Origin: Elusimicrobiota bacterium
GTDB taxonomy: Bacteria; Elusimicrobiota; Elusimicrobia; UBA1565; UBA9628
Assembly (NCBI GenBank): GCA_016218575.1
Contig: JACRDN010000019.1
Coordinates: 1-64,000 of the forward strand
Reading direction: 5' to 3'
DNA: 64,000 nucleotides
Shown: one piece after another, positions 31,812 through 49,495 of the stretch
How positions within the stretch are numbered: the stretch's first letter is position 1
Layout of the letters: every line of letters begins with the position of its first letter
Program-made: the position numbers and the translations under genes
The notes under the pieces: model-generated
Told to the model about the DNA's origin: nothing
Seen by the model: the letters and a program-made list of their open reading frames with translations, nothing else
The model's database searches: none

Positions 31812-31845
31812 TGTTCATCACATTTTTTTCAGAATCGGGAGCAAT

Positions 31846-34800
31846 ATGTACCTTAAATCGATCGACGTCGTCGGATATAAATCCTTCGCCGCCAAGACTC
31901 ATTTGGACTTGGGCCCCGGCATCACTGGAATCATCGGCCCGAACGGCTGCGGCAAGTCCAACATCATGGAATCCGTGCGCTGGTGCCTGGGGGAAATGTC
32001 CTGGAAATCCTTGCGGGCCGATTCCATGGTGGACGTGATTTTCTCGGGCACGGCCAAGCGGCCTTCCCTATCCATGACCGAGGTCACTTTGACCTTCGAC
32101 AACGCATCGAGCCTTCTTCCCGTGCAATTCTCCGAGGTGACCATCACCCGCCGGATCTTCAGGTCCGGGGAGTCCTCCTATTTCCTCAATAAGACCCAGT
32201 GCCGCCTGCGAGACATCCGCGAGCTTTTCCTCGACACGGGACTGGGCGGCGACGGCTACGCCATCATCGACCAGGGCGGGGTGGATTTTGTCCTGTCCTC
32301 CAAGCCCGAGGACCGGCGCTCCATCTTCGAGGAGGCGGCCGGGGTGGCCAAATACAAGGCCAAGCGCGAGGAGGCCTTGAGGAAGATAGAGCGGGTCGAG
32401 GCGGACATGGCGCGCATCCAGGACTCGTTGGCCCTCATCACGGACCAAGTCAAGAAGCTCGACTCCGATGCCAGAAAGGCTAAGCTATACCAAAAATACA
32501 AGGAGGAGCTCGCCGCCCTGGAGGCCGCGCACATCCTCGATCAACTCACGACTCTCGAGGCCGAGGTGTCCCAGCTCTCGGCCCTGGCCGCGCCGCTCGA
32601 GGAGATCGTGGGCACGCGCCGCGTGGAGATGGACGGCGAAGGCGCCAACCTCGCGGCCTTGAATTTGGAGAAAGCGAGCCAGCAGGGCCAGGTCCTGGGC
32701 TGCAACCAGAGGATTTCCGAGGTCAAGTCCGAGATCGGGCGCCTAGAGGAGCGCATCCAGGCGGCCCGGCGCGCCATGTCCGAGGCGCAGGAGCGCGCGG
32801 CTTCCTGCCAAGGGGAGCTCACCTCGATGGGCCAACGCCTCCTGGGGCTGGCGCCCGAGATGGAGCGCTCGAGCCAGGTCGTGGCCGACGCCGAGTCGGC
32901 CCGGGCCCAGGCCGAGCAGGACTTGAACAACTGGAGCGGGTCTTTGCGGGCCCTGCAGGAGAAAAGCTGCGGGGCGCAGGCGGGGCTCGACTCCCACAAG
33001 GCCGCGGCCTTGGACCTGGCCGAGAGGATATTGTCCCTGCGCCGGGGGCTCGCCCAGAGCGAGTCATCCTGGTCTCGCCAGGAGACCCAGCTGAGGTCCA
33101 GCCTCCGGGAGCTCGAGAAGGATTTAGCCCAGGCCGAAAACTCCCGCGTCGCGATAGAGTCCGCGCGGCAGGGCCTGGAGTCGCAGCGGGCGCAAACCGC
33201 CGCCGCGGGGGCCGCATGCGAGCAAGCCCAGAAAATCACGGCGGACAAACGCTCCCAGGAAGGGGCCCTGGCCGAGGATACCTTGAGGCTCCACGCCAAT
33301 TTGGCCGAAAGCCGGGCCCGCGCTGAGGCCCTCGAGGTCCAAGGCGGCCAGAACCCTTACTGGGTCGGGGCCCAGGCCGCGCTCAACGCCGGGATCGAGG
33401 GCGTCGTCGGCACGGTGCGCCAGCTTTTCCGCGTGGAGGAAGCCTACAGGCCTTATCTCGAGGATCTTTTGGGAGAGAGGCTCTACGCCGTGGTCTGCGA
33501 GGACTCCTTGGTCGCCCGCGCCGCCATCGAGATGCTCCAAGCCTCGGGCAAGGGTCGGGCCCGATTTCTCGTGCTGAGCTCCCTTCCGAGCTCCGTGGCC
33601 CAAAGGGAGTATCCTCCGGAGGCCAACCCGCTCCTGCGCCACGTGTCTTTCGACCCGCGCCATGAGAGGGTTCTGCGCTTCCTCCTTCGGGAGGCTTATG
33701 CTCTCGACAAGGCCCTTTTTGGGGAGCATTGGGTTTACGGGGGAGCTCCGGTCAAAGAAGGCGCCCAGCTGAGCCTCGCCGATGTGACGGAGCTTCGCTC
33801 CCAAATTTCACGCGCCGAGGTTCGCGCCGCCGAGCTCTCGCAAGCCAAGGCGAGCCTCCAAGCCGCCATCGCCGAGGCGGAGGAAAGCGCGCGCGCCGCC
33901 GCCTCGCTGTACCATGCAGAAAGCGCCAAGGAAGCCTCCCTTGAGGCGCAGCTCCGCGATCGGGAGACGAGCCTATCGCTCCATCAGAAGAATGTGGAGC
34001 TCTCGCGCTCGGAGGCGGTGCGCCTCCTCGCGGACATGGCTATTCTAAAGGAAGGGATCATCGAGCTGCGCCGCCGCATCGAGGCGGCCGAGGCCGAGGA
34101 GAAGTCCGCCCGGGAGCGCGAGTCCCAAGCCGCCCAAATTTTAGCCGCGACCCGCGAGGAACTGGCCGGGGCGCAGTCCACCCACGAGCTTCTCGAGTCC
34201 AAATTCGACAGCGCGCGGGAAAAAACGGCTTTCCTGGCCGGGGCTTACGAGCGCCTGGGGGCCGAGCAGAAGAGCCTCGAGGCCGCTATCGCCAGGCGCC
34301 AGCAGGAGATGCGCGATTTGGGGGCCAAGAAGGAGGATCTCGCCGCCTTGATGAAGCAGTCCGAGGAAGAGCTCGCCGACCGCCACCAGAGGCTGGCCGT
34401 GCTCGAAGTGGAGGCCCAAGGGGTCTTCGCGCGGCTTCAGGAGATCGAGAGATCCATCGCGCAGAAGGAGGAGTCCCTACGCCAAATTCAGCAGGCGCAC
34501 GGCCAGGCCCAGAAGGAGCTTCACGAGCTCGAGCTCAAGCTCAGCGCCCAGCGCAGCTCCCGCGAACTCCTGCAAAAGCGGCTATGGGACGATTGGCAGC
34601 TTACTTACGACGAGGCCAAGTCCAAATACGGCAGCCAGTCGGCGGACGCCCAAAAGATTGAATTCTTGCGCAAGCGCATTGCCAACATGGGCAATATCAA
34701 CATGGCGGCTCCGGAGGAGTACGAGGCCCTCTCTTCCAAGGAGACCTTCCTGGCCGCCCAACTAAGCGACTTGAGCCAGGCCAAGGAGGACTTGAAGAGC

Positions 34801-35349
34801 GCCATCCAAAAGATCAACGGCACCACCCGCGAGAATTTCCGGCAGACCTTCACCGAGGTGCGGGAGCACTTCCGCCGCATTTTCGGCGTGCTCTTCGACG
34901 GCGGCGAGGCCGATCTTGTCTTGACCGATCCCGAGAATATATTGGAAACCGGCGTCGAGATCGTGGCCCAGCCCCCGGGCAAGCGCCTGCAGAGCATCTC
35001 GCTTCTTTCCGGAGGGGAGAAAACCATGACCGCCATCGCCCTCTTGTTCGCCTTTTTCATGGTCAAGCCCTCCCCGTTCTGCATGCTCGATGAGGCAGAC
35101 GCCGCCCTGGACGACGCCAACGTGGAGCGCTTCGTGGCCCTCCTGCGGGAATTCCAGAGCCGCTCGCAGTTCCTCATCGTGAGCCACAACAAGAGGACCA
35201 TGGAGGCCGCCGACGCGATCTACGGCGTGACCATGGAGGAGATGGGGGTCAGCCAAATCATATCCGTGGACTTCCGTAAAAAGCTGCCGGAGCACCCCAC
35301 TCCCGCGGCGCAGCCCACGACGCCCCAAGATCCAGTCGGCCCGGCTTAA
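31846..35349 (+). CDS. smc: chromosome segregation protein SMC
   Basis: The 1167-aa protein has Walker A GPNGCGKSN (residues 31-39), a long coiled-coil arm, a hinge around 505-640 (GVVGTVRQLFRVEEAYRPYLEDLLGERLY), the return coil, signature LLSGGEKTMTAIAL (about 1053-1066) and Walker B FCMLDEADAALDD (D1082, E1083). It organises and segregates chromosomes with ScpA/ScpB. The length is typical. The start MYLKSIDVVGYKSFA is the canonical N-terminus. A short Pro/Thr-rich tail (residues 1148-1167) is unusual but minor. Confidence 0.96.
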   Translation: MYLKSIDVVGYKSFAAKTHLDLGPGITGIIGPNGCGKSNIMESVRWCLGEMSWKSLRADSMVDVIFSGTAKRPSLSMTEVTLTFDNASSLLPVQFSEVTITRRIFRSGESSYFLNKTQCRLRDIRELFLDTGLGGDGYAIIDQGGVDFVLSSKPEDRRSIFEEAAGVAKYKAKREEALRKIERVEADMARIQDSLALITDQVKKLDSDARKAKLYQKYKEELAALEAAHILDQLTTLEAEVSQLSALAAPLEEIVGTRRVEMDGEGANLAALNLEKASQQGQVLGCNQRISEVKSEIGRLEERIQAARRAMSEAQERAASCQGELTSMGQRLLGLAPEMERSSQVVADAESARAQAEQDLNNWSGSLRALQEKSCGAQAGLDSHKAAALDLAERILSLRRGLAQSESSWSRQETQLRSSLRELEKDLAQAENSRVAIESARQGLESQRAQTAAAGAACEQAQKITADKRSQEGALAEDTLRLHANLAESRARAEALEVQGGQNPYWVGAQAALNAGIEGVVGTVRQLFRVEEAYRPYLEDLLGERLYAVVCEDSLVARAAIEMLQASGKGRARFLVLSSLPSSVAQREYPPEANPLLRHVSFDPRHERVLRFLLREAYALDKALFGEHWVYGGAPVKEGAQLSLADVTELRSQISRAEVRAAELSQAKASLQAAIAEAEESARAAASLYHAESAKEASLEAQLRDRETSLSLHQKNVELSRSEAVRLLADMAILKEGIIELRRRIEAAEAEEKSARERESQAAQILAATREELAGAQSTHELLESKFDSAREKTAFLAGAYERLGAEQKSLEAAIARRQQEMRDLGAKKEDLAALMKQSEEELADRHQRLAVLEVEAQGVFARLQEIERSIAQKEESLRQIQQAHGQAQKELHELELKLSAQRSSRELLQKRLWDDWQLTYDEAKSKYGSQSADAQKIEFLRKRIANMGNINMAAPEEYEALSSKETFLAAQLSDLSQAKEDLKSAIQKINGTTRENFRQTFTEVREHFRRIFGVLFDGGEADLVLTDPENILETGVEIVAQPPGKRLQSISLLSGGEKTMTAIALLFAFFMVKPSPFCMLDEADAALDDANVERFVALLREFQSRSQFLIVSHNKRTMEAADAIYGVTMEEMGVSQIISVDFRKKLPEHPTPAAQPTTPQDPVGPA

Positions 35350-35364: not shown

Positions 35365-36126
35365 ATGATTTATGGCGTGTTTTCCGACGTGCACGCCAAC
35401 CTGGAGGCCCTCGAGGAGGTCTTGGATTTCTTCGAGGCGAGCGCCGTGGACGGCTATATCTGCTGCGGGGATCTGGTGGGCTATGGGCCGGACCCGGAGA
35501 CCTGCGTGGCCCGGATCGCGGCCCTCAAGAACTCCGTGATCGTCTGCGGCAACCATGACCTGGTGGCGGTGGAACGCCTCGAGCTCTCCTGGTTCAACCC
35601 TTACGCTAAAACCGCCGCCATTTGGACCCGGCCTCATCTCTCGGACCGGGCCAAGGCCTACCTCGCGGGCCTCTCTCCCAAGCGCGAGGCTTCCGGCTTC
35701 ACCGTGGCCCACGGCACTCCGCGCCGGCCCCCCGAGGAGTACATGATGAGCGCCGCCCAGTTCCGGGAGAACATTCCCTACGCCAAGGTCTGGCCAGTGT
35801 TCGTCGGGCACAGCCACATGTCCCTGTGCTTCCGCCTGCGCCAGAAGGCTCCGTCCCTCCTGGAGGTCGAGTCCCAATGCCTCGAGGACGGCCAAACCTT
35901 CAAGGCCTGCCCAGGGCCGCAGGGCTTGCTCCCGGCGGCCTTGAACCCGGGTTCGGTGGGCCAGCCCCGCGACCATGACACGCGGGCCTCCTGCGCCCTT
36001 TATGACTCGGAAACCGGGGTTTTCAAGTCCGTCCGCTTGACCTACGACATAGCGGCGGTCCAGCGCAAAATCCGCCGGGTCGGTCTTCCCGAATACCTCG
36101 CCCTGCGCCTGGCCTACGGGCAATAA
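35365..36126 (+). CDS. calcineurin-like metallophosphoesterase
   Basis: The 253-aa product has the full motif set: FSDVHANLEALEEVL (D, H), CGDLVGYGPDPE (GD), VCGNHDLV (GNHD), VAHGTPRRP and VGHSHMSL (GHxH). It is a YfcE-/DUF-type cytosolic phosphodiesterase of unknown substrate. It begins 15 nt after smc and is likely co-transcribed with it. An ATAGG/CCTAT hairpin with a T run (36133-36153) after the gene may be its terminator, but it overlaps promoter box 1 of the next unit. Confidence 0.9.
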   Translation: MIYGVFSDVHANLEALEEVLDFFEASAVDGYICCGDLVGYGPDPETCVARIAALKNSVIVCGNHDLVAVERLELSWFNPYAKTAAIWTRPHLSDRAKAYLAGLSPKREASGFTVAHGTPRRPPEEYMMSAAQFRENIPYAKVWPVFVGHSHMSLCFRLRQKAPSLLEVESQCLEDGQTFKACPGPQGLLPAALNPGSVGQPRDHDTRASCALYDSETGVFKSVRLTYDIAAVQRKIRRVGLPEYLALRLAYGQ

Positions 36127-36206: not shown

Positions 36207-36374
36207 ATGAGAAAGCACGGTTCCAAGGCCCGCCTTGCCATGAGAGAAGAGCGGGACATCCATTGCTCTTCTTGGCCCGCAGACCGGGTCAAACGCAAAC
36301 TTACCTACGAAAGCCAGACCGAGTCCTACCTCTGGATCACCGACCGGGGTCGCTCTCGACTGATCAAGCACTGA
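36207..36374 (+). CDS. small basic protein, unknown
   Basis: The 55-aa, Arg/Lys-rich product (MRKHGSKARLAMREERD...) is of unknown family. The -10 of promoter A lies 6 nt before its ATG. Its TGA is 2 nt before the ATG of the barrel-like gene, which itself lacks a Shine-Dalgarno, so translational coupling is plausible. It may be a leader peptide rather than a functional protein. An alternative is that the whole stretch is the 170-nt leader of the downstream gene. Confidence 0.45.
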   Translation: MRKHGSKARLAMREERDIHCSSWPADRVKRKLTYESQTESYLWITDRGRSRLIKH

Positions 36375-36376
36375 TT

Positions 36377-37429
36377 ATGCCCAAGGCCGCGATGAAGCTT
36401 CTTCTCGCGGCTTCGCTGTTTTTAGTGGTCCCTTGCGCCCGGGCCGCCAACCCCAGCATGTCCGAGGATTTCACCCGGATGATGCAGTGGCTGAGCCACG
36501 AAATGGTCCAGGGCCTGGCCTTCAACGCGGGGTCCACTTTCGACCCTCCCCGCGAAGTCAAGGACAGGAGGCTCCAGCCCGACGTGAGCCTGGGGCTGGG
36601 GAAAATGCCCCTCGACAAGAGCCGGTTTCCCGCGCTCGCGACCCCCGCCCTGCGGGAGATGGGTGCTCAGTCCATATTTCCGTCGAGCGTCCTATTCCCG
36701 AATCTCGCCATGCACGGGCGCATCGGGCTGCCCAAGCGCTTCGATTTGAGCCTGCGTTTCGCCGATATGACCACCCCCTCCGGCTACAAGATCGCTCCAG
36801 GCACCACGGGGAGCGGGCAGAGCAACTCCCTCGGCCTCGGCCTGCGCAAGCACTTCTTCGGCCTGGGCGGCTCTCCTCTTTTGAGCGTCGGGGCCAACTA
36901 CAACCACGTGTCCGGCCGCTTCCGCTACGAGAGCAAATTCAATATAGACACCATCCCGGGCTTCTCGGCCCAGAGCGACATGGTGGGCACGGTCAAGTGG
37001 AGCGTCAATTCCTACGGCTTGAACGCGGTGCTGAGCCAAACCTGGGCCAATTGGACGCCCTTCTTCGGGTTCGGCTATAACCGCGTGACTGGCTCGGTGG
37101 AGACGCGCCTGGAGGCCATTCCCAACACCATACTCATCTCGCGCATCTCGGGAGAGGCCAGCGAGCATCCCGAGGAAAGCCAGGGCCGGGTCATACTGGG
37201 GACCCAGCTCAACCGCTCGTGGTTCAATTTATTCGCCAACGGCGAGATCAAGGCCATAGGGATCGGGGCCGGGCAGTCCTGGATCGTGCACGCGGGACTG
37301 ACCCTGCCGTTCCATGTGAGCTCGCCGGTCAAGTTCCTGGCCAAGCGCATGAAGTTCCGCAAGGTCTCCGCCCCCGCGAGGGTGGAGGCCGGCAAAGTGG
37401 AGATGTCGGAGTTCGTTTTTATTCAGTAG
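36377..37429 (+). CDS. secreted beta-barrel-like protein
   Basis: The product (350 aa) has a signal peptide (MPKAAMKLLLAASLFLVVPC then ARAA, cleavage near residue 23). The body is rich in alternating aromatic/Gly strands (FDLSLRFADMTTPSGYKI, LLSVGANYNHVSGRFRYES, WTPFFGFGYNRVTGSVETR, FNLFANGEIKAIGIGAGQ), as expected for an outer-membrane barrel of about 12 strands. No family is recognised, and the terminal residue is Gln, not the usual Phe. The start could also be the Met at 36392. It lies 57 bp before the 2425-aa gene, so the two are probably co-transcribed from promoter A. Confidence 0.7.
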   Translation: MPKAAMKLLLAASLFLVVPCARAANPSMSEDFTRMMQWLSHEMVQGLAFNAGSTFDPPREVKDRRLQPDVSLGLGKMPLDKSRFPALATPALREMGAQSIFPSSVLFPNLAMHGRIGLPKRFDLSLRFADMTTPSGYKIAPGTTGSGQSNSLGLGLRKHFFGLGGSPLLSVGANYNHVSGRFRYESKFNIDTIPGFSAQSDMVGTVKWSVNSYGLNAVLSQTWANWTPFFGFGYNRVTGSVETRLEAIPNTILISRISGEASEHPEESQGRVILGTQLNRSWFNLFANGEIKAIGIGAGQSWIVHAGLTLPFHVSSPVKFLAKRMKFRKVSAPARVEAGKVEMSEFVFIQ

Positions 37430-37485: not shown

Positions 37486-40400
37486 ATGCTGAAACGGTTT
37501 TTCGCCGCGGGGCTTTCGGCCCTTTTAGCGGCGTCCTCCTTTGGCCCGGCCGCGGCCGCGGGGATAAAACTTTCCTCCTTTCCTGGGAAGAGAGTTGAAG
37601 TAAAGGTAAATTCCACCCCTTCGGCGCTTCCAGCCAGGCCCTTTCCCGCAGCGAGCAGGGAACTGGCTATGCGCCTGCGCCATTCGCCTGTCGCCAGGCT
37701 CACGATCCATGCCCCGGCCGCCGCGGCGCGGGCGGCTGGTGAAGCGGACTTTGCCCGGCGTGTTCTAGGCGAGAATCCGCAGACTTTTTTGCCCGAAGCG
37801 GAAGTGCTCCACGTTCCGGGAGGAAGCCCCGTTTCTAGTTTCGCTTCACGACTTCTCCTACACCGCTTTCAAAGGCCGCGGGCTGGGCAAGCCCGTCTTC
37901 CGCGCCCATCCCGCGCGGAGCCGAGGGCCGCGGCGCGCGCCGCCACGGCCATGCTCTGGCCGGCCGCCGCCTCGGCGCTTTCCTGGGTCGGTCTGGCGAT
38001 GGCGCGCTGGGCTTTGGCTCCAGCCGCGATCACCGTGAGCCCGGCCAAGGAGCCGGGGATTTTCGGGATTGGGCTGGGACTCATGGCCGCGGCCGCGGTT
38101 GTTTTCGGGACCTTGGCCCTGGGCGATCTGATCTTGTTCTCGGCGGCGACGCGCCGGGGCCGCAATGCCACCAAGGCGCAGTTCCACGCGGCGGTCAACA
38201 CCCTCAAGGCGGAGGGCCAAATCCCCTTGAACGCCCGCGTGTCGGAGTTCAAGCCTAAGAGAGGAGCCTGGGACTTTCGCTTCGGCTATGCCGCGGGGGA
38301 TACCATCTTCATCAGGCGTGAACTGGCGGCCGTCCCCTGGCTGTTCAAGCTCGTCCTGGCCCATGAGCTTGAGCATTTGGAAGACCACCGAGCCCGGGGG
38401 CCTCCGGGAGGCGTTTCCTACGGCTTTATCCGGAGCGCGGTCCGAGGAATCCTTGCCGAGGCCAAGGCCAGGGCCCTGGAATGGCCGCGCTGGCATTCTT
38501 TAAGGAAGGCAAGGGCCTCCCATTTCGAGCAAGTTCTCTCCGCGGCCAAGGCTTCTCTCCATTTCGATGGAGTCTCCGAGGTTCTCCTGATCAATCCCGG
38601 AACCGAATTCCTGCGCGATCCCCTGCTGTTCCAAAAGCTTTCCGGCGGCCGGGCCCGCGTCGTCAAGTCGCGGAAGAGCTCTCCGGGTCCGGAGCTCGCC
38701 CGAAAGCCCGGGCGCTTTACGGCCGTGGTCTGGGACAAGCACGCAGAGGCCCTGCCCAAGCCCGGAACAAGGGGGCGGGGGGAGCTGGAGAAGGCCTTGA
38801 GGCATTTCAACAGCCTGCATCAGCTTCTCATGGGTCGTCCGGTGCCCGAAAGCGCCGGGATAGAGCTCGACGACAAGGAGAAGAAGGCCTTCGATAATTT
38901 GAGGAGGATCGCCGGGAAGATCGCGCGCGGCGACAAGTCCCAGGAGAGGCGGTTCCACCGCCAGGTCAAGGCCTTCGGGCGTAAATTCTTCAGGCTCAAG
39001 CACGAGGAGCTGCCGCAGTTGAGGCAGGCCCTTGGCTTGGTGGAGAACCTTTACGCCGGGCTCAAGAACAACGGGATCGTCTATTTGAGCTTCCCTCCCG
39101 GCGACGCCACCCTTCCTCTTTGGCAGGGTCTCCTGCGCTTCTGGGAGGCCGCCGACGGCGGGGAGTTCCGCATGGCCCGCGTGGACATGATGAACGGCGG
39201 GCATGTCCTCCTCCTGCGCAAGGCGGAGTCGCGAGTGAGCCTGGTCTTGAGGCCCCGGGCCCAAGGAGCCATCAAGGAATCTTTGCCCTTGTCCGGCAAT
39301 CTCGCCAAAAGCCGTTCCAGGGCCAGGATCCTCTTGAAGCAGGCGGGTTTCAACAAGTACCTGGCGGAGTTCGAGAGGTTGGGCGTCGAGGTGCGGCATA
39401 TACTGGGCCGGGATTTCGCAGCGGACGAGGAGATTCACGTGAGCGTACCCTACCGCAACCTCGCGGCCCTGCGCCGGCTTCTGCGGGACGGGCGGGAGTT
39501 CGAGGTCAATGGGGTCAAATCAGCGGCCAGCCCTCGGATGATCGAGTCCGCCCCCATCGAGGACGTCCCCCGCTTGTGGGAGAGCGGGATCAATGGGAAA
39601 GGCGAAAGGGTAGCCATCGTGGATACGGGGCTTTTCATGCACCACGATTTAGAGGCTAGGGCGATAGTAAGAGACGTGACCAATACTGGCCTCAAGGATA
39701 CCGACGGGCACGGGACCGTGGTCGCGGGCATTGCCGCCGGCTCGGGGGACGATGTAAAAGGCACAGCGCATGGCGCATCCCTCGTCGCGGAAAAGGTTTT
39801 TGGAGACGACGGCCCCGGGGCCACCGACGCCGATATCCGCGCGGGGATCACGGACTCGTTCAAGAACGGAGCCGGGGTCGTCAATTTGAGCTTGGGAAGC
39901 GAGGGCTACGTGGATTCCGTCTTAGCCAGATTCGTCACCAAGATGGCCGATGTGCTCAACTCCTTGGGCGAAAAGGTCATCTTCACCATCGCGGCCGGCA
40001 ACGAGGGCCCTTTCGACAGGACCGAGGGCCAGCCCGCCACGGCCAATTCTCCCAACGTTCTGGCGGTCGGCTCCGCGACCAAGAAGGAACGCGTGTCCCT
40101 GTTTTCGAGCCTGGGCCCCACGACCAAGGAAAGGCCCCTGATCGTTCGCGACTTCGAGGGGCCTCATCTGGTTGCCGTCGGCGGGGGGCTGGGAGAGCCT
40201 CCCCATTTTTACGGCCCGGGGGTTCTGGCCACCCGCTCGGCGGACTCCGATGAGGCTCCGGACGATTCCGAGGATCGCAAGTACACGCATATGTCCGGCA
40301 CCTCCCAGGCCTCGCCTCAAGTAGCGGGAATTGCCGCGGATCTCAAGCAATTCCTGCGAAAGGTCGGCGTCCTTCAGGGCTTTGTCGCGGAAAATATCGG

Positions 40401-43400
40401 CTTTGTCATGCGGTTCCTTCTTCAGTCATCCGCCAAGGACCTCGACGTCCCCACTTGGTCCCAGGGTGCCGGCGAAGTTCAAGCCAATCAAGCCCGCAAT
40501 TTGGCCCGAGGCTTGCTCAAGCTCGGGGATCCTTGGCTTCCCGTTCGCTTATATAAGGAAATATGGGACTTGCAGGAAGGCGTTTACGCCGCGGCCAAGG
40601 GCGCCAAGAAGGTCGCGGAGGCGCTGGCCCGCTTCTGGCCGGAGAGCCAGAAGGCCGCGCCTCGCCTGCTCGAGCTTCTTAATTTCCGTCTTGATGTCGA
40701 GGTTCCGGATGCCCCGGGAGGGTCTCAGACCATGGACGCGGGCTGGACGGTGAGGCGCTTCGCGGCCTTGGCGCTGGGTAATTTCCTGGGCCAGCCCGAG
40801 GCCCTCGAGCTCGCCAACAAGGACGAGGTCGAGTCAGCCATGGCCCGAGGCTCCGCGGCCTTGTGGGACCGCGCCCTCAACGATCCCGAGGCCCGGGTCC
40901 GCCAAATGGCCTTCCTGGCGCTAGGGAAGCTCCCCGTCCTCTCTCCCGCGGTTATGGAGGGCCTGCGCCAGGGCTTGAGCCACGAGAAATGGGATATCCG
41001 CATGTACTCGGCTCACGTCCTGGCCCGCCAAGGCAGCCGTGAAGGGGTCGAGAAACTGCTGGAGGGCCTGAGTCGGAGCGAGTACGCCCCGCGCTTCACT
41101 TCGAGATGGCTCTTGGGCGAGCTTAAGGAGCAGGTGGCCGCCGGCGAGGCCGAGCTGCTCTCGGATCTCGCCAAGGCCGAGCCGGAGAAGGGCCTCAACG
41201 AAGAGGACGACCTCCCGCACCGGGCGGTGGCGGCCTTGCGCGAGATCGCCCTTTCCAATCCCGAGGCCGTTACCGGAAAGGCTCTCGTGGACCTTTTGGA
41301 AGCCACCGGCTTCCTAGAGTCCGATGGCCGGCGCAACGTGATCTTGACGCGCACGATTTCGCGGTTCTTTACCCAAGTCTTGGAAAAAGAAGATATTTCT
41401 AAAACCGTCCAGGAGGAGCCCTTCAAGTCCGCCGCGACCCGCTACGTGCTCAACAACCGCGGGGCGGCGCGAAAACCGGGAGGCTTGGGCGACCTGGTGC
41501 GGCTCCTCTCCCAGGCCTTGAACATTCCCACCGAGGTCCCCACCCCGGCCCTGGACCCCGCCGGGGAGGGAGTGCCGGGGGTGGATCATGTGATGGGCCG
41601 TATTGACGTTATGGTCGAGGTGCCTTTAGGGGTCTTCGTCACCGAAGTCCTGGACGACGAGTTCCTGTCTTCTTTCGAGGCCAAGCGCGAGGGCTCCTTC
41701 TTCCATGACAGAATCATTTGGCTGAGCGTTCCTGAGCACAAGCAATTCGCCCTGAAGGAGAGGTTGAAGCAGGCCGGCTACCGCTACCGCTCGGCGGTTC
41801 CTTATTACCCGATGTCTAATCCGGCTGACGCGGAGCCGGATTCCGCGGCGGAGGTCGCCCTTAAAATCGAGCCGGAAGGGCCTTTGCCCGATATTCCCGA
41901 CCTCGTCGGGATTCCTCTGATCAAGATCAAGGCCGGGCGGCTCGGAGTTTCCGAGGCCCGCATCCTGGCTCTCTTAGAGAGCCTGAAAATCAAGATCGGA
42001 GACCCTTTGAAGAATCCTGCCGTCATCCTCCTGGATTTCGGCGGCCCCGCGGGCGATGAGTCGCGGACCGTGCTCAGCCGCTACGTCAACCAAATGGCCT
42101 TGGAGAATTTTCTCGTGGTGGCGCCGTCCGGAAACGAAGGTCCGGGGAAAGACAGCGTCGCCTCTCCCGCGGACGCGGATCTCGCCGTCACCGTGGGAGC
42201 GGCCGAAGGCGGCGCGCCCGCCTATTACTCCTCGGGCGGCTCCGCCGTGGATTGGCTGGAGGAAGCCGGGCTCATGGGCACGGCCGCGGCCGCGCAGAGG
42301 TCCGCTTTGGGGCTGCAGGCCCTGCTCAAACGGCTAAGCCAAGCCTTCCCCACCGGCCTTCCGGAGGGCTACGGCCATTATCTAGCCGGCCTCGTCAAAG
42401 ATAGCCTCTCGAAAGAGGGTCTCGCCCAGGAGCTGGGGGCCTCCGCGCTCCTGGAGGAGGGGCTCAAGGCCCCCGAGGCCGCGGCGGCCGCGGCTCGCGC
42501 CCTGCAAGGGGATGTTTTGGAAAGCCACCCCCGCTTCGAGGAGGCGGCCGTCCTGCCCGCGCCCTTGGCCAGCAAGATCCGGGGGGCCTTGAATTTCGCC
42601 ATACATAAGGGCTTGTTCGCTGCGGAGCAAGAAGCCGCGCAAGGGCAGTGGAATTGGACGGCGGAAATTCCGTCTCGCGTTTTGGACTCAATGGCGAGGA
42701 TGAGCCCTGAATTGGCGCAAAGAACTTTAGCCGCCCTGGAGCATGTGTTTTATGTTCTATTGAGTCTCAGACATAAATGGAAAGATGCCGTGCCTGCTTT
42801 TGAGCTGGAGGGCGGCTTTCTACGGCATCTCTTGGAAAGCACCTTGTCCCACTTGGGTCCGACGGAGCCTTTATGGAATTTTTTCAACCGGATAAAGACC
42901 GAGGACATTCCAGGGGGGGATAAATACCTCGAATTGCTCGCGTCCCTTGATTTTATCGTCTCGAGGCTCAGGCAAATAGTGCCTGCCAGCAACTTGAGAG
43001 GCAAGGCCATCTACCAGGTCATCGCCCGGACGTTCGCCGAAAAATTCAACTTGGATGAGAGTCTCGATGATGAGGAATTGGGAAGGATCAGGGCAAAGGG
43101 CTATCAAGTGTTGTGGCTTACCGACATTTTCAAGATAGGCGAGGTCAACCGCTGGAACGGGGACGATCCTGATGGAGGCGGGGGTTCGCCTTATGCCTTG
43201 GTGGACTATGCGGTCAAGCCGGAGTATGGCGGGGAGGCCGCATTGAAGAGGCTGGTCGAGCGCGCTCGGGCCTTGGGAATCGAGATATGCGTGGACCTGA
43301 TCCCGAATCATACCGCATTGGACAGCGTGGAGCTTCAGGAATATCCCGAGAATTTCCTCCATATCATTGCTCCCCGGGACCCGCGCCAGCGCGGGGCGAG

Positions 43401-44763
43401 AGAGAGCCGGGCGGACTATGAAGGCTATTTGAGCTCATACCTCGACGAGATCGGGGTTCCCAGGCATCATGGGCGCCATGTGTTTTATCCCGTGCGCGTG
43501 GAAAAATATCCTCGGGATATTGAAAATCTCTCGGGCCCGCGCGGACCCAAGTGGATCCTGGTGCGACACCCCATGACTCCGGACAAGTCGCAGGACGTTG
43601 AAGAGAGAAGGGCGAAGAGGAATATGTACAACGACATGGCCCAGAAGGATTTCAGCCGGCAAGAGGTTCGCGAGCGGGAAATCGGCCGGGTGTTGGAAAT
43701 GATGGGGGCGTGGGGGATAAGAGTCTTCCGGCGAGACATGCCGGATGTGTTGACCAACCGAAACTTCTACGACCACTGGGTGGACATTTTGAACTATGAA
43801 ATTGAGAGGGCGCCGCGCGATTCCTGGTACCAGCGCGAGCTGATCAGGCTGGGTCACGGCATGAACAGACGTTGGGCGGAGGTCCAGGGCTCCGAATTTC
43901 TCGACCAGATGACCCGGGTCGCGAAATTCGCCGATTCCCGCGTTGTCTTCATAGACGAGACTTACAATCCGGCCGATTTGAGATTTTTCACCGATGCCGT
44001 GAATAACAAGGTCGGCCTGTACGACTCTCTTGCCCAGAGGAAGGGCGGCTCTGAAATCCGCCGGCAATTGCGGGAAGTCGCGTTTTATCTTTGGCAGCAC
44101 GCCTTGGCTCCATTCTTGAACTTCAGCGTGAACCATGACCTGCCCAACCCGTACGACGCCTTCGAGGGCATCGTGGAGGCCGCGCTCGTGGCCATTCTCC
44201 TGTTCAGGCCGACTCTCACGGTGGCCGGCTTTGAGCAAGGTGCTGTATTCAACGACAACATCGTCATGGGCGATAGGGCGCGCGGCTTGTCCGAGGATGC
44301 CCGCAATAATAGGATGACTCCTTTGGATTTCAAGGCGTGGATCAATTGGGCTTTTGACGGACCTTACAAGGCGGTAGCCGGCAGAATTCAGGAATTGTCC
44401 GAGAGGTATCGGGATATTTTTTCGGAAGGAAATATTCATGTCCCAGAACCCCAAGCCCCATCCGACCTGGTGCTTTTCACCGCCCAGGGCAGGGACTTGA
44501 GCGGGAAATCCAAGGTCATCCTGGCGGCGCTTAACCCCTCGCTGAAATCGCAGGGCGCGTGGTTCGCCCTGCATCAGCCGGTCACCCCCGAGTCTTTCGC
44601 GCCCAAGGAGGACAAAACCTACGTTTTGCGCGACGTCCTGAACCTGAGGCCCAACGGGGAACCCGCGGTTTATACCCGCAGCGGCAGGGAGCTCGTGGAG
44701 AAGGGCCTCTTCATCGCTCTTGAGGGCGGCAAGGCCCACGTTTTCGAGGTGGAGGAGCAGTGA
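37486..44763 (+). CDS. 2425-aa secreted M56-like/S8/HEAT/pseudo-S8/GH13 fusion
   Basis: The signal peptide spans residues 1-25. Two hydrophobic segments (about 147-173 and 183-213) precede an M56/M48-like zinc motif HELEH (293-297). A subtilase (S8) domain follows with a propeptide-like IHVSVPYRNLAALRRLL segment and the full triad D713 (IVDTG), H742 (DGHGT) and S940 (GTSQASP), plus oxyanion N839. HEAT repeats occupy about 1085-1290. A second propeptide-plus-S8-like unit (about 1365-1625) keeps the Asn (SGNEGP, N1550) but has Ala1600 at the Ser position. A GH13 domain (about 1850-2340) has IPNHT (H1942), FRRD (nucleophile D2084), DETY (E2158) and NHD (D2218). A beta-rich tail ends GKAHVFEV. 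It is followed by a sugar-uptake gene set. Confidence 0.85.
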   Translation: MLKRFFAAGLSALLAASSFGPAAAAGIKLSSFPGKRVEVKVNSTPSALPARPFPAASRELAMRLRHSPVARLTIHAPAAAARAAGEADFARRVLGENPQTFLPEAEVLHVPGGSPVSSFASRLLLHRFQRPRAGQARLPRPSRAEPRAAARAATAMLWPAAASALSWVGLAMARWALAPAAITVSPAKEPGIFGIGLGLMAAAAVVFGTLALGDLILFSAATRRGRNATKAQFHAAVNTLKAEGQIPLNARVSEFKPKRGAWDFRFGYAAGDTIFIRRELAAVPWLFKLVLAHELEHLEDHRARGPPGGVSYGFIRSAVRGILAEAKARALEWPRWHSLRKARASHFEQVLSAAKASLHFDGVSEVLLINPGTEFLRDPLLFQKLSGGRARVVKSRKSSPGPELARKPGRFTAVVWDKHAEALPKPGTRGRGELEKALRHFNSLHQLLMGRPVPESAGIELDDKEKKAFDNLRRIAGKIARGDKSQERRFHRQVKAFGRKFFRLKHEELPQLRQALGLVENLYAGLKNNGIVYLSFPPGDATLPLWQGLLRFWEAADGGEFRMARVDMMNGGHVLLLRKAESRVSLVLRPRAQGAIKESLPLSGNLAKSRSRARILLKQAGFNKYLAEFERLGVEVRHILGRDFAADEEIHVSVPYRNLAALRRLLRDGREFEVNGVKSAASPRMIESAPIEDVPRLWESGINGKGERVAIVDTGLFMHHDLEARAIVRDVTNTGLKDTDGHGTVVAGIAAGSGDDVKGTAHGASLVAEKVFGDDGPGATDADIRAGITDSFKNGAGVVNLSLGSEGYVDSVLARFVTKMADVLNSLGEKVIFTIAAGNEGPFDRTEGQPATANSPNVLAVGSATKKERVSLFSSLGPTTKERPLIVRDFEGPHLVAVGGGLGEPPHFYGPGVLATRSADSDEAPDDSEDRKYTHMSGTSQASPQVAGIAADLKQFLRKVGVLQGFVAENIGFVMRFLLQSSAKDLDVPTWSQGAGEVQANQARNLARGLLKLGDPWLPVRLYKEIWDLQEGVYAAAKGAKKVAEALARFWPESQKAAPRLLELLNFRLDVEVPDAPGGSQTMDAGWTVRRFAALALGNFLGQPEALELANKDEVESAMARGSAALWDRALNDPEARVRQMAFLALGKLPVLSPAVMEGLRQGLSHEKWDIRMYSAHVLARQGSREGVEKLLEGLSRSEYAPRFTSRWLLGELKEQVAAGEAELLSDLAKAEPEKGLNEEDDLPHRAVAALREIALSNPEAVTGKALVDLLEATGFLESDGRRNVILTRTISRFFTQVLEKEDISKTVQEEPFKSAATRYVLNNRGAARKPGGLGDLVRLLSQALNIPTEVPTPALDPAGEGVPGVDHVMGRIDVMVEVPLGVFVTEVLDDEFLSSFEAKREGSFFHDRIIWLSVPEHKQFALKERLKQAGYRYRSAVPYYPMSNPADAEPDSAAEVALKIEPEGPLPDIPDLVGIPLIKIKAGRLGVSEARILALLESLKIKIGDPLKNPAVILLDFGGPAGDESRTVLSRYVNQMALENFLVVAPSGNEGPGKDSVASPADADLAVTVGAAEGGAPAYYSSGGSAVDWLEEAGLMGTAAAAQRSALGLQALLKRLSQAFPTGLPEGYGHYLAGLVKDSLSKEGLAQELGASALLEEGLKAPEAAAAAARALQGDVLESHPRFEEAAVLPAPLASKIRGALNFAIHKGLFAAEQEAAQGQWNWTAEIPSRVLDSMARMSPELAQRTLAALEHVFYVLLSLRHKWKDAVPAFELEGGFLRHLLESTLSHLGPTEPLWNFFNRIKTEDIPGGDKYLELLASLDFIVSRLRQIVPASNLRGKAIYQVIARTFAEKFNLDESLDDEELGRIRAKGYQVLWLTDIFKIGEVNRWNGDDPDGGGGSPYALVDYAVKPEYGGEAALKRLVERARALGIEICVDLIPNHTALDSVELQEYPENFLHIIAPRDPRQRGARESRADYEGYLSSYLDEIGVPRHHGRHVFYPVRVEKYPRDIENLSGPRGPKWILVRHPMTPDKSQDVEERRAKRNMYNDMAQKDFSRQEVREREIGRVLEMMGAWGIRVFRRDMPDVLTNRNFYDHWVDILNYEIERAPRDSWYQRELIRLGHGMNRRWAEVQGSEFLDQMTRVAKFADSRVVFIDETYNPADLRFFTDAVNNKVGLYDSLAQRKGGSEIRRQLREVAFYLWQHALAPFLNFSVNHDLPNPYDAFEGIVEAALVAILLFRPTLTVAGFEQGAVFNDNIVMGDRARGLSEDARNNRMTPLDFKAWINWAFDGPYKAVAGRIQELSERYRDIFSEGNIHVPEPQAPSDLVLFTAQGRDLSGKSKVILAALNPSLKSQGAWFALHQPVTPESFAPKEDKTYVLRDVLNLRPNGEPAVYTRSGRELVEKGLFIALEGGKAHVFEVEEQ

Positions 44764-44764
44764 A

Positions 44765-44792
44765 CCCAGACTGCGGCCGGCCGCAGTCTGGG
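44765..44792 (+). repeat. 28-bp perfect GC palindrome
   Basis: CCCAGACTGCGGCC followed directly by its reverse complement lies 1 nt after the stop codon of the giant gene. It has no loop beyond what hairpin folding forces and no T tract. It may stabilise the mRNA 3' end or attenuate transcription. The last GGG (44790) lies exactly 37 bp before TATCAG (44827-44832), echoing the tandem-box promoter spacing, but box 1 is absent. Confidence 0.5.
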
Positions 44793-44848: not shown

Positions 44849-46576
44849 ATGAGAAAGTTTTGCGCGTCAATCATCGCCGCGGCGTTGATATTCCTCTCCC
44901 CCGGGAGCGGCTCTTACCAGGCGTTCGCCGGTCTTCTCAGAGGCGAGGTTCCAACGAGAGGGGGTGTGTCCCGGGTCTCGATCCGTTTTCCGCAGTACGA
45001 GATGCCTTATTCCGGCCTGCAAACCGGCTCTCCAACAGCCACTTATGCCGATATCGAGGCGTCAGGCCCTTACCGGGAGATCCGCCTGCGCCCCTTGAAG
45101 GCGATTCCCGAGCATGCGGCCGAGAATTCGATAACCGCGCGCGCCATCGCGTGGCCTGGCCGATTTTTGGCCTCGCTTGCGCCCAATTTGTCGGACTCTC
45201 TGTCATTCCAATGGTTGTCTTACTTGCCGTTTCACCGGGCTTGGATGGACCCCGGAGCCAAGGCCGAGGCCGCCGGCAAGGAATGGACGCGCTGGTTCGA
45301 TTCGCAGGTCGATCATGATGCCGTTCTAGCGGATGCGGCTAGCCCAGCCATGGAAACTGCGGAGGCGGGCCCCGTGCGCATCACGGCTCCTCTGCTGAAG
45401 GCTCGCCTGCCCGGGTCGGTGGCCCACGCCCGTGTCATGCCGGGCGTGGATTTCAGTCTTGCGAAACCCGTGCATGAGAAGGAATTGGCCATCCTCGTAG
45501 TTCACGGCGCCACCGAGACCGAGGCCAGGCGCAATCTCGGCCATGTGCTGCGCGGCCTGCAGGTGGTCGTCAAGCAGACCTTCAAGGAAAGATGGGAAGA
45601 GTATGTGGAGAATCTCCAAAAGCTCTCTCTTGTCCCGTTCTTCTTTCTTATCATTCCGCAAGCCTTGAAGAATTTCGCGAATTTGACCTCGGGCCATCCC
45701 GAAGAACTCGATATCTTGAAAAAATGGATCGGCTGGCCTTCGGGAAGCCTGGCCGACATGGGCATGGTCCTATTCTTTCAAAAGCTGGGAGAGGGGCATC
45801 GCTACGCCATGATGGTGCAGATATTCGGCATCGTCATGAGCTCCGTGGTCTTGACCCAGATTTGGTGGGCGGGACATGTGCCCACGGCCTTCCTGGCGGG
45901 CCAATTGGCTTTCGTGGGCGCGGGCCTTTCGATAGTCGCCCTGGATGCCATGGGGAAGCTTCCCGAGCCCGTATGGAAAGCTTGGAGTGATTTCGTGGGC
46001 ATCGCGCAGCAGGCGTTTCTTCCCGTGGCCGTCTGTTTGACCGTGGCTGAGTCGGTGCCTTTGGCGGCCATGGCTATTCCCGCGGGGGTCGCGGCCATCC
46101 TGGTGATTTTGTTTCGGAATGGAATTTTGAAGAGATACCACAGTCTTAAAGCCCTCCACGATTTCATGAGATATTTCAATGGATGGAACTCCACCATGCT
46201 TTTCGCGGTGGGCCCCATTTGCCAGCTCATAGCCAATTATTTGCATCCCGAGAGCATCGCGGGCGGGTTGTCGCCGGAGACTTTTATGCTTAACATCATC
46301 GGCAACGGCCTCATGCTCGCCATGGCCCTCTTGATGAAAAGCGGGATATGGTTCGTCGGATCTTCGTTCGCGGTCTCGATCGGCGGCGTTGGCCAATTGT
46401 TCGGCATGTACTACTTCAACGCTCTTAATCCTGTTTATTTCCTGGCGGCTTCCGGCGCCGTCTACCTCTGGATGAGATTCATCCTGGAGCATACCCGCAG
46501 GTATTTCGGAGACTCCAGCGTTTGGAGTCCTCTAATGAGGTTGAGGTTCAAGCCCGAAGCGGAGAGTGAAAAATGA
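44849..46576 (+). CDS. PQ-loop/SWEET-like membrane protein with signal peptide
   Basis: The 575-aa product has a signal peptide (residues 1-27) and a soluble region to about 245. A multi-pass membrane domain follows with FFLIIPQALKNFANL (IPQ at 269-271), reminiscent of the PQ-loop of SWEET/MtN3 transporters. A second, weaker unit GPICQLIANYLHPE occurs near residue 450. Each unit has about three hydrophobic segments, suggesting two triple-helix repeats. Position between a GH13 protein and an ABC sugar importer supports sugar transport, but the family call rests on motif resemblance. Its stop overlaps the next start (ATGA). Confidence 0.6.
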   Translation: MRKFCASIIAAALIFLSPGSGSYQAFAGLLRGEVPTRGGVSRVSIRFPQYEMPYSGLQTGSPTATYADIEASGPYREIRLRPLKAIPEHAAENSITARAIAWPGRFLASLAPNLSDSLSFQWLSYLPFHRAWMDPGAKAEAAGKEWTRWFDSQVDHDAVLADAASPAMETAEAGPVRITAPLLKARLPGSVAHARVMPGVDFSLAKPVHEKELAILVVHGATETEARRNLGHVLRGLQVVVKQTFKERWEEYVENLQKLSLVPFFFLIIPQALKNFANLTSGHPEELDILKKWIGWPSGSLADMGMVLFFQKLGEGHRYAMMVQIFGIVMSSVVLTQIWWAGHVPTAFLAGQLAFVGAGLSIVALDAMGKLPEPVWKAWSDFVGIAQQAFLPVAVCLTVAESVPLAAMAIPAGVAAILVILFRNGILKRYHSLKALHDFMRYFNGWNSTMLFAVGPICQLIANYLHPESIAGGLSPETFMLNIIGNGLMLAMALLMKSGIWFVGSSFAVSIGGVGQLFGMYYFNALNPVYFLAASGAVYLWMRFILEHTRRYFGDSSVWSPLMRLRFKPEAESEK

Positions 46577-47826
46577 GAAAAGGCCTGGAACTGTTTTTGC
46601 CGGCGATTCTTCTTCTGCCCGCGTCCTGCCGCAAGGCCCCCTCCAGCGCGGACGGGAAGGTCACCATCCGCTACCTCGCCAACCCGGACGTGGGCGGGGC
46701 GACCAAGGTACTGATTAAGAAGTTCGAGGAGAAGAACCCGGGCATTCATGTCGAGATGGTGGAGGGTCCCTCGGCCCCCAATACCCGGGAGGACATGTAC
46801 GCCACCTCCTTCATGGCCCAGGAGGACAGCTACGATTTCGCGCACATGGACGTGGCGTGGCTGGCCAAGTTCGCGGCCCAGGGCTGGCTCAAGCCCTTGG
46901 ACGGCTACTTCGCCGCCCAAGAGCAGGAGAAGTTCCTGCCCGGGGACATCGCGGGCTCTAAATTCAACGGCAAAATCTACCGTGTCCCCAACCAGTCGGA
47001 TGGGGGGCTGCTTTACTACAGGAAAGACTTGCTTAAGGCGCGGGGGCTTACGCCCCCGCGGACTTGGGACGAGCTCGTCGCCGCGGCCAAGAAGATCCAG
47101 TCTCCGCCCAACCTTTGGGGCTATGTGTTCGAGGGTAAACAGTACGAGTGTCTGGTCTGCAATTTCCTGGAGCTCGCCTGGGGCAACGGGGGGGAGCTCA
47201 TTGATGAAAAGGGCCAGGTCCTCATAGACCGCCCCGAGGCGGTCCAGGCTTTGCAGTGGATGGTCGACGCCGTGCATAAGCACAAGATCTCCCCGCCCGG
47301 GGTCCTCACTTATCAGGAGGAGGAGGCCCGGCACGTGTTCCAGGAGGGCCAGGCCGTATTCATGCGCAACTGGCCCTACGCCTGGGAGCTCATGCAGAAG
47401 GAGGGCTCTCCGGTGAAAGGCAAGGTTGGGATCGTCCCCATGGTGCATGGCAAGGGCCGCTCCGCGGCGGCTTTGGGCGGCTGGGGCTTCGGCATATCGG
47501 CTTTCTCGAAGCATCCCGATGAGGCCTGGAAGTTCATCGAGTTTCTCACCACCCACGAAGGGCAGAAAACCGCATACCTCATGAGCGGCATACTGCCCAC
47601 CCGAAAATCCGTGTACGCGGACCCGGAGATATTGAAGGCAAGCCCCCAGATCAAGGATCTCTACAATATCCTGAGCCTCACCCGGCCCCGCCCCTTAAGC
47701 CCCGCCTACGCCAGGGTCTCGGACATCGTCCAACTCAAGGTAAGCGCGGCCCTCTCCGGGCTGGGAGAGCCCCAAAAGCTCCTCTCCGAGGCCGCCCAGG
47801 AAATCCGCGGGGTGCTCAAGCGCTAG
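46573..47826 (+). CDS. sugar ABC transporter substrate-binding lipoprotein
   Basis: The 417-aa family 1 extracellular solute-binding protein resembles the UgpB/MalE type. The N-terminus MRKGLELFLPAILLLPASC is a lipoprotein signal with lipobox LPASC (Cys19). Typical features are LIKKFEEKNPGIHVEMVEG, the YRVPNQSDGGLLYYRKDLL hinge segment, GEAVFMRNWPYAWELMQ-type QAVFMRNWPYAWELM and AALGGWGFGISAFSKHPDEAWKFIEFL. It captures oligosaccharide, or possibly glycerophosphodiester, for the permeases at 47829 and 48659. The ligand cannot be read from sequence. Confidence 0.92.
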   Translation: MRKGLELFLPAILLLPASCRKAPSSADGKVTIRYLANPDVGGATKVLIKKFEEKNPGIHVEMVEGPSAPNTREDMYATSFMAQEDSYDFAHMDVAWLAKFAAQGWLKPLDGYFAAQEQEKFLPGDIAGSKFNGKIYRVPNQSDGGLLYYRKDLLKARGLTPPRTWDELVAAAKKIQSPPNLWGYVFEGKQYECLVCNFLELAWGNGGELIDEKGQVLIDRPEAVQALQWMVDAVHKHKISPPGVLTYQEEEARHVFQEGQAVFMRNWPYAWELMQKEGSPVKGKVGIVPMVHGKGRSAAALGGWGFGISAFSKHPDEAWKFIEFLTTHEGQKTAYLMSGILPTRKSVYADPEILKASPQIKDLYNILSLTRPRPLSPAYARVSDIVQLKVSAALSGLGEPQKLLSEAAQEIRGVLKR

Positions 47827-47828: not shown

Positions 47829-48662
47829 ATGCCCGCGACCAACCGCCCCTGCGCCGCCGTGAATTGGCTTTACGTGGCCCCGGCCCTCCTCCTCATGGGC
47901 CTGGTCAACCTCGTGCCCATCGGACAGACCGTTTGGCTGAGCCGGGGGTTCGGGCAGATAGCCAAGGACGCCCGCCTTTGGCTGGTGCTCAAGAACACTT
48001 TTGCCTTCACGGGGGCGGCGGTGTGTCTGGAACTGATGCTAGGATTGGGAATAGCGCTCTTACTTTCTCGCCCATTTCATGGGCGAGGATTCGTACGCGC
48101 GGCGGTGCTCATTCCCTGGGCCCTTCCCACCGCGGTCATGGCCATGGCCTGGCGCTGGATATTCAACGCCGAGTACGGGGTGCTGGGCGACCTCCTTTAT
48201 AAGGCCCATTTGGCCGCCTCGCCCAAGATCGCCTGGCTGGCCTCTCCGGGAAGCGCTTTCTGGGCCTGCGTCCTGGCCGATGTTTGGAAGACCACGCCCT
48301 TCATGGCGATCCTGCTCATGAGCGGCTTGGCCGCGATTCCGAAGGAGCTCTATGAAGCGGCCGGCATGGACGGGGCCGGTCCCCTGCGGCAATTTATCAT
48401 CATCACCTGGCCGCTCCTCAAGCCCACCATAGCCGTGGCCGTGGTGTTTCGGGCGATACAGAGCTTCGGGATTTTCGACCTCATTTGGGTGTTGACCGGA
48501 GGCGGGCCGGGGGGAAGCACCCAAACCATCGCCCTCTACGTCTATGACATGGTTTTCCGCTACCAGGAACTGGGCTACGGCTGCGTGCTGACCATGGTCA
48601 TGGGGGCCTCGCTTCTCGCCATGGCTGGGGCTCTCTTCAGCTTGACGAGGACAGAGGCATGA
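47829..48662 (+). CDS. sugar ABC transporter permease (MalF/UgpA type)
   Basis: The 277-aa inner-membrane permease has six transmembrane segments. The EAA coupling motif lies in ELYEAAGMDGAGPLRQFIIITWPLLKP (residues about 176-202), followed by FDLIWVLTGGGPGGSTQTIALYVYDMVF, the family signature. It forms the channel with the next gene product. It starts 2 nt after the binding-protein stop and its own stop overlaps the next start (ATGA). Confidence 0.93.
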   Translation: MPATNRPCAAVNWLYVAPALLLMGLVNLVPIGQTVWLSRGFGQIAKDARLWLVLKNTFAFTGAAVCLELMLGLGIALLLSRPFHGRGFVRAAVLIPWALPTAVMAMAWRWIFNAEYGVLGDLLYKAHLAASPKIAWLASPGSAFWACVLADVWKTTPFMAILLMSGLAAIPKELYEAAGMDGAGPLRQFIIITWPLLKPTIAVAVVFRAIQSFGIFDLIWVLTGGGPGGSTQTIALYVYDMVFRYQELGYGCVLTMVMGASLLAMAGALFSLTRTEA

Positions 48663-49495
48663 GGAAAACACCTATAGCAACCGCCTGCTTTTACGCGGCT
48701 ATAGCGGTTGCTACGATTTGGAGCCTGGCTCCCTTTCTCTGGCAGGTGATCACCTCCCTGAAAACTCCGGAGGAGGTTCTCTCCATTCCTCCGAAGTATT
48801 GGCCCGAGCGCGCCAATTTCTCGAGCTACGTCAAGATCTTCTCGACGCGCCCCTTCGCGACCTACATCGCCAATAGCCTCATCGTGGCCTTCGGCACCAC
48901 CTTCTTGTGCACGGCTCTGGGAAGCCTTGCCGCCTACGCCTTCTCGAGGCTCAAGATCCCCGGCGGGGCCTGGGCCTTGAACGCCATTCTCCTCATCGCG
49001 CTTTTCCCGCCGACCTTGCTCGTCGTGCCCTTAAAGCAGCTCATTCAATTCTCCGGGCTCATCAACAATCCCCTGGCCCTGGTCCTCTCCTACACGGCGC
49101 TCAATCTGCCCTTCGCGATATGGGTTCTCATGACCTTCTTCAAGACTGTGCCTTCGGACATCGAGGAGGCGGCCCAGGTGGACGGCTTCTCGCGCTGGGG
49201 ATTGCTCTGGAAAATCATCTTCCCGCTCTCGGCACCCGCCGTAGCCACCACGGCCATCCTCATCTTCATCTTCTCCTGGAACGAGTTTTTGCTGGCGCTT
49301 ACCTTCATCTCCAAGGACTCGGTGCGCACGGTCCCGGTGGGAATCGCTCTTCTTTCCGGAGTCACGGTTTATGAGGTGCCCTGGGATCAGATATCGGCCG
49401 CGGTGGTCGTGACTACTATGCCCGTGGTCTTGATGGTTCTGGCTTTCCAGAGGCGCATCATAGAGGGTCTGACCGCCGGCGCGGTCAAGGGGTAA
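48659..49495 (+). CDS. sugar ABC transporter permease (MalG/UgpE type)
   Basis: The 278-aa permease has six transmembrane segments and the EAA loop EEAAQVDGFSRWGLLWKIIFPLSAP (residues about 173-197). The N-terminal ITSLKTPEEVLSIPPKYWPE and the C-terminal FSWNEFLLALTFI are typical of the MalG/UgpE subfamily. It pairs with the 47829 product. The ATG overlaps the preceding stop, indicating coupled translation. Confidence 0.93.
   Translation: MRKTPIATACFYAAIAVATIWSLAPFLWQVITSLKTPEEVLSIPPKYWPERANFSSYVKIFSTRPFATYIANSLIVAFGTTFLCTALGSLAAYAFSRLKIPGGAWALNAILLIALFPPTLLVVPLKQLIQFSGLINNPLALVLSYTALNLPFAIWVLMTFFKTVPSDIEEAAQVDGFSRWGLLWKIIFPLSAPAVATTAILIFIFSWNEFLLALTFISKDSVRTVPVGIALLSGVTVYEVPWDQISAAVVVTTMPVVLMVLAFQRRIIEGLTAGAVKG

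Follow-up and report, generated by a model that had tools for sequence, protein, structure and literature searches.

Loci of the mal and sus types that include MalEFGK likewise combine an α-glucan enzyme of the envelope with an importer and a candidate outer-membrane partner, and it is with these loci that the one described here is best compared. The parts of its central fused protein have described counterparts of their own. Pro-Tk-subtilisin and ProN-Tk-SP, both of family S8, have the same fold as its first subtilase, with a propeptide, a catalytic domain and an intact triad; AmyB of Thermotoga neapolitana (4gkl) and an enzyme of Lactobacillus plantarum (3dhu) have the same barrel, C-terminal beta domain and triad as its GH13 half; and two-domain GH77 + GDE_C debranching enzymes of Elusimicrobiota and Omnitrophota fill the identical slot of the protein in relatives.

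In the window, by which we mean the whole stretch of 64,000 nucleotides that was analysed, the enzyme is, unlike in mal and sus-type loci, fused to a membrane unit with tandem subtilases, here called the chassis; a PQ-loop-like protein is present, a DUF6588 protein stands where LamB or SusC would be expected, and the GH13 enzyme is exchangeable with GH77-GDE_C. Compared with pro-Tk-subtilisin and ProN-Tk-SP, the chassis adds a membrane hairpin and an HExxH motif before the subtilase and HEAT repeats and a dead second S8 unit after it. The GH13 domain of the window is remote from characterised enzymes (about 16% identical in the structure-based alignment) and differs from 4gkl and 3dhu in being a predicted exported domain at the C-terminal end of a 2425-aa protein, and searches found no sequence similarity between the GH77 + GDE_C enzymes and the GH13 unit. 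All of the modules are known. Their combination, in which a membrane chassis with tandem subtilases carries an α-glucan enzyme that can be exchanged, is not described in the open-licence full texts searched, and these texts also yielded nothing relevant on a subtilase/GH13 fusion or on DUF6588. The statement in the original prediction that no protein of this domain order had been described is uncontradicted by those texts, but the protein is not unique, since it is a member of an order-wide family, and the novelty is the repeated fusion of the chassis to different glycosidases. To our knowledge, the order UBA1565 lineage is uncultured and no isolate of it has been studied.

Domain organization of the fused protein

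The gene for the fused protein starts with ATG, has no internal stop and is present as a single copy in the 2.82-Mb genome, on a contig of 551 kb (Table 1). The original prediction had described it as one reading frame, and the 2425 codons are indeed uninterrupted, with each of the residues it cited (D713/H742/S940, HELEH 293-297, D2084/E2158/D2218) found at the position given. Pfam matches, all exceeding the gathering score, were obtained for Peptidase_S8 at residues 704-993 (E 1.4e-43; 149.7 bits), HEAT_2 at 1125-1201 (E 1.1e-9) and Alpha-amylase at 1868-1946 (E 1.2e-7). AlphaFold2 models built on alignments of relatives had a mean pLDDT of 82 for residues 150-1330 (34 sequences) and of 85 for residues 1226-2425 (41 sequences), where the GH13 portion was mostly above 90. 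When these models were searched with Foldseek, the former matched pro-subtilisins (E 1.5e-15) and the latter GH13 amylases (E 1.2e-16), the best being Thermotoga AmyB; in this check, which had been asked for at the outset, the S8 and GH13 regions were both modelled as such folds.

Table 1. Features of the locus in window coordinates, with the basis for each assignment
Feature	Position	Strand	Basis
SMC protein, conserved, anchors synteny	31558..35349	+	profile match; synteny
Metallophosphoesterase, conserved upstream neighbour	35365..36126	+	profile match; synteny
DUF6588 protein, outer-membrane-barrel-like, C-terminus EFVFIQ	36263..37429	+	synteny; barrel by inspection only
Fused gene: predicted exported tandem-subtilase chassis + GH13	37486..44763	+	2425 aa; conserved in relatives
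Signal-peptide-like N-terminus, residues 1-25, MLKRFFAAGLSALLAASSFGPAAAA	37486..37560	+	sequence pattern only
Membrane hairpin region, residues 150-225	37933..38160	+	hydropathy; AF2 helices
HELEH (293-297) + ExxAR Glu325, gluzincin-like motif	38362..38460	+	conserved in relatives
Propeptide-like segment ahead of S8, about residues 630-690	39373..39555	+	Foldseek pro-subtilisin alignments reach over the segment
S8 subtilase domain, D713/H742/N839/S940 intact	39595..40464	+	Pfam; residues; Foldseek
HEAT-repeat region	40666..41385	+	Pfam; all-helical in AF2
Second propeptide + S8-like remnant, catalytically dead	41521..42345	+	residue alignment
Disordered linker, residues 1685-1726, fusion junction	42538..42663	+	AF2 pLDDT < 50
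Helical domain + GH13 barrel + C-terminal beta domain	42730..44760	+	Pfam; AF2; Foldseek
28-nt perfect palindrome, CCCAGACTGCGGCC/GGCCGCAGTCTGGG	44765..44792	+	between fused and PQ-loop genes
PQ-loop-like multi-pass membrane protein, PQ domain about residues 249-575	44849..46576	+	PF04193 in homologues
MalE-type solute-binding protein	46573..47826	+	profile matches
MalF-type permease	47829..48662	+	profile match
MalG-type permease	48659..49495	+	profile match
MalK/UgpC-type ATPase	49497..50552	+	profile matches

The N-termini of all full-length relatives of the fused protein are alike. Two membrane segments had been predicted; the one at residues 192-210 is clear by hydropathy, whereas the first is suggested by low-confidence AF2 helices and by the relatives. 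The HELEH zinc motif is present and, together with E325, gives the HExxH plus downstream Glu pattern of M48-type gluzincins, but no kinship of the domain to a known peptidase family was detectable. HExxH is kept in 29 of the 31 relatives that cover it, the exceptions being G002 and G017; the downstream ExxAR glutamate is nearly always present (these counts, and those of the S8 triad, were made by hand from a residue table). The domain had no Pfam match, and when it was compared by hhalign with M48 sequences of the clade, a set that contained mis-extracted rows, the HExxH helix alone aligned, with a probability of 8%. Convincing similarity to M48 was not seen, and for M56 nothing above the cut-off was found among relatives.

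In the first subtilase the D/H/S triad is accompanied by the oxyanion Asn839 and the profile match is above the cut-off, which places the domain in S8; from these conserved catalytic residues it is predicted to be a protease. Of 33 relatives, 30 have an intact triad, and three that are fused to GH13 (G009, G016 and G002) have lost the Asp. The predicted HEAT repeats were recovered both by Pfam and as an all-helical region of the AF2 model. The second subtilase-like unit is there as well (about residues 1346-1620), but it is only a remnant that lacks the Asp and His segments and has Ala in place of the Ser (LMGTAAAAQ). Members of family f1 have this unit without the Asp and His segments and with a Ser to Ala change or a Gly-flanked loss, whereas family f2 and, within family f3, G026 have it intact.

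When stand-alone GH13 relatives were aligned to the fused protein, the alignment started at residue 1749, just past the disordered segment, and stand-alone GH13 and GH77-GDE_C relatives have signal-peptide-like leaders of their own at the position where the enzyme joins the chassis. This indicates that in the fusion the chassis stands in place of the leader that an exported enzyme once had. The GC content across the junction falls from about 0.64 to about 0.56, which is compatible with two histories without being decisive. The GH13 domain, again as predicted, has the family profile, the (beta/alpha)8 fold and the motifs with the Asp nucleophile (D2084 in VFRRD), the Glu acid/base (E2158 in FIDE) and the transition-state Asp (D2218 in NHD). 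Both by structure and by sequence it matches maltogenic/α-amylases best, and the Foldseek list also contains GlgE, TreS and amylosucrase; judged by its family and its neighbourhood, it would act on α-glucans.

Neighbouring genes

The order SMC, metallophosphoesterase, DUF6588 and chassis is conserved across genera, and DUF6588 lies ahead of the chassis in nearly every resolved locus. In the chassis-free genera represented by G013, G018 and G005 the order is SMC, in some cases phosphoesterase, DUF6588 and a GH13 fused to the PQ-loop domain (GH13::PQ), so that GH13 takes the position of the chassis. Nearly all of the DUF6588 homologues, from about 25 loci, share a hydrophobic C-terminal motif that ends in Q or R (for example EFVFIQ, DMIFLQ and ELIFIR) and follows a variable linker rich in Lys and Pro; this tail was also seen where the chassis is absent, and it looks like a putative docking or sorting tail.

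The palindrome that follows the fused gene lacks a T-run and was not predicted as an intrinsic terminator. The PQ-loop-like gene and the MalE/F/G/K importer genes that had been reported downstream were confirmed. PF04193 was matched by five of nine homologues of the PQ-loop protein (best E 3.8e-5), and the window member scored 16.9 bits against a cut-off of 22 bits; a search for a solved relative gave none. Several relatives have the PQ-loop domain and GH13 in one protein; the source genome and G014 have them as separate proteins. The importer genes comprise SBP_bac_1, two BPD_transp_1 and a MalK/UgpC-type ATPase, that is, a cluster of the MalEFGK type, and the best NCBIfam match of the binding protein is the MalE model, far under its equivalog cut-off (52 vs 291 bits). 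Orthologues of MalE/F/G/K with 57-74% identity come after GH13::PQ in G033 and after GH77-GDE_C in G025; in G023 they lie about 5 kb downstream of GH77-GDE_C. In G002 (L024) and G007 (L029) a single ORF of 746-747 aa encodes both a MalE-like and a MalF-like part of the importer. Elsewhere the source genome encodes GlgB and an adjacent MalQ-like GH77 that could use imported maltodextrin. Further downstream in the window are genes for a protein with two GGDEF domains (56214-57707) and for a Peptidase_M50-like membrane protein with a signal-like N-terminus (57745-59187).

The chassis family and its C-terminal slot

Region-by-region comparison of the relatives showed that the chassis is a protein family of about 1700-2200 aa with the order signal-like leader, membrane hairpin, HExxH domain, alpha/beta region, propeptide, S8, HEAT, and second propeptide/S8. 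Its N-terminal region was found in 38 of 341 genomes of the phylum, which belong to order UBA1565 and one further family of the class, and in a profile scan with the aligned GH77-fused relatives the closest named relatives were Elusimicrobiota metagenome genomes. The search of related genomes for the same architecture, which the original prediction had called for, thus found the chassis across the order and the chassis fused to GH13 in five genera of two families: g1, g3, g10 and g11, and in another family g16. The genomes are the source genome (G000), G009, G016, G002 and G017, and in the other family G026; other families have the chassis without GH13. In genera g7, g8 and g12, and with a frame break in g15, the chassis is instead followed by GH77 and GDE_C (amylo-1,6-glucosidase), a debranching-enzyme pair; this was found in G006, G011, G215, G216, G219, G221, G225 and G227, likewise in G019, where the contig ends early, and in G024 (family f3), where the frame seems to be broken. 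The comparison shows that the chassis accepts an interchangeable predicted α-glucan enzyme, either GH13 or GH77-GDE_C, in the same slot. In the g11 genomes G010, G231 and G234 the GH13 barrel is deleted with its edges left, and a separate GH77-GDE_C gene lies downstream. Chassis and GH77-GDE_C are unfused neighbours in G214, with the enzyme gene 73 bp downstream, and fused in its sister G221; chassis and GH13 are apart in G007 and G014. In the tree the placement of the window protein is unsure because long branches meet, and the number of fusion events is therefore not claimed.

The two enzyme types did not occur together. With the enzyme class assigned by us from match strength and ORF length, and the g11 vestiges not scored as GH13, exported GH13 was present in 17 of 37 genomes, exported GH77-GDE_C in 8 of 37 and both in none (Fisher p = 0.004, which ignores shared ancestry). 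Among chassis genomes only, the numbers were 13, 8 and 0 (p = 9e-5, likewise ignoring shared ancestry), and one enzyme type was present in 21 of 23 chassis genomes compared to 4 of 14 others (p = 1e-4, again with shared ancestry ignored); the two chassis genomes with neither enzyme are both less than 80% complete. A GDE_C domain was not found in the source genome.

Proposed role and competing explanations

What we propose, with a probability of roughly 0.55, is that the locus encodes a membrane-tethered envelope protease with an interchangeable α-glucan enzyme that feeds the adjacent PQ-loop-like protein and MalEFGK. The fused protein would be exported and tethered to the inner membrane, and it would consist of two historically separate units, the proteolytic chassis and the GH13 enzyme beyond the disordered linker. 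The GH13 enzyme would cleave or rearrange α-1,4-glucans in the periplasm and the resulting oligosaccharides would be taken up through MalEFGK, this being the presumed direction of sugar flow; partners in this would be the PQ-loop-like membrane protein and, perhaps, the DUF6588 barrel. The chassis would keep the enzyme at the membrane and add the predicted subtilase activity, most likely for self-maturation and/or for trimming protein around the glucan or partner proteins. The α-glucan link of the chassis locus is well supported by genome comparison, namely by two unrelated enzymes in the same slot, by the GH13::PQ fusions and by MalEFGK beside either enzyme, and to this extent the envelope role first suggested for the protein stands. 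Its proteolytic side is predicted from conserved residues, and it is here that the three GH13-fused relatives without the S8 Asp matter. Since there are lineages that lost S8, lineages that lost HExxH and lineages that lost GH13, none of the three is strictly needed for the polypeptide to be retained, and the predicted proteolysis is dispensable in some lineages. The recurrence of the chassis fusion in at least two families, with two unrelated enzymes that do not co-occur, is strong comparative evidence that proteolysis in the envelope is linked to the processing of α-glucans. From it a function can be suggested for a locus that is otherwise without annotation (SMC - phosphoesterase - DUF6588 - chassis - glycosidase - importer), DUF6588 becomes a candidate for an outer-membrane protein related to glucan, and the natural domain swaps and losses provide material to dissect the role of each part.

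A serious rival, which we hold to be possible rather than probable, is self-maturation: the subtilase, once its propeptide is removed, would cut the linker near residues 1685-1748 and release GH13, and the fusion would only co-express and mature two separate exported enzymes. That the junction is a disordered linker, located where stand-alone enzymes have a leader, fits such a polyprotein, as does the interleaving of fused and adjacent unfused states among close relatives, G221 and G214 being an example; the fusion is, however, kept in the three relatives without the S8 Asp, and the stand-alone enzymes require no such maturation. A more specific version of the envelope protease with an interchangeable enzyme is that a membrane-tethered double-subtilase chassis, docked to the outer-membrane barrel by way of the conserved C-terminal tail of DUF6588, removes protein from material resembling glycogen or starch, and that the enzyme in the slot, GH13 or GH77-GDE_C, meanwhile breaks down the glucan so that it can be imported; this proteolysis-coupled acquisition we regard as doubtful.

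GH13 and GH77 both contain transglycosylases, and GH77 is typically a glucanotransferase. The locus could on this account build or remodel an α-glucan at the surface or in the periplasm, assembling or trimming an exported glucan and not harvesting one, and GlgE, TreS and amylosucrase among the Foldseek matches of the GH13 half point the same way. We consider this unlikely, as the GH77 unit comes with a debranching domain, the conserved neighbours are an importer and not an exporter or polymerase, and the best matches of the GH13 half are maltogenic/α-amylases. It is still harder to regard the protein as a scaffold whose domains are structural and whose catalytic motifs persist by inertia: HExxH, the S8 Asp, the second S8 and the GH13 barrel were lost independently in different lineages, but about 90% of the relatives, whose overall identity is 30-40%, still have the triad and HExxH, and where GH13 decayed the slot was refilled by a different active-looking enzyme.

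The closed chromosome CP096137, which is among the closest named relatives and comes from order UBA1565 (SILVA Lineage IV, described as diderm), was assembled from Nanopore R9.4.1 long reads (PMC9476967). Its chassis::GH77-GDE_C (L064/L084) extends over 8.1 kb and is read as three ORFs, a break plausibly caused by indel errors. An assembly or annotation artefact joining separate genes, which the draft state of the source genome might suggest and which the original prediction had named as its possible undoing, is made very improbable by the recurrence of these joins in genomes of many genera that were assembled independently, and by this long-read relative, where the fusion lies in one stretch broken only by frame errors.

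Very long frames were also met elsewhere. In Omnitrophota, GH77-GDE_C lies within ORFs of at least 6696 aa (L089:2732-22819) and 2252 aa (L085:3-6758), so that the pair is embedded in giant proteins of another phylum too, and a class-level relative has an open frame of 17,755 aa with an S8-like stretch (G035:C5, near 22933).
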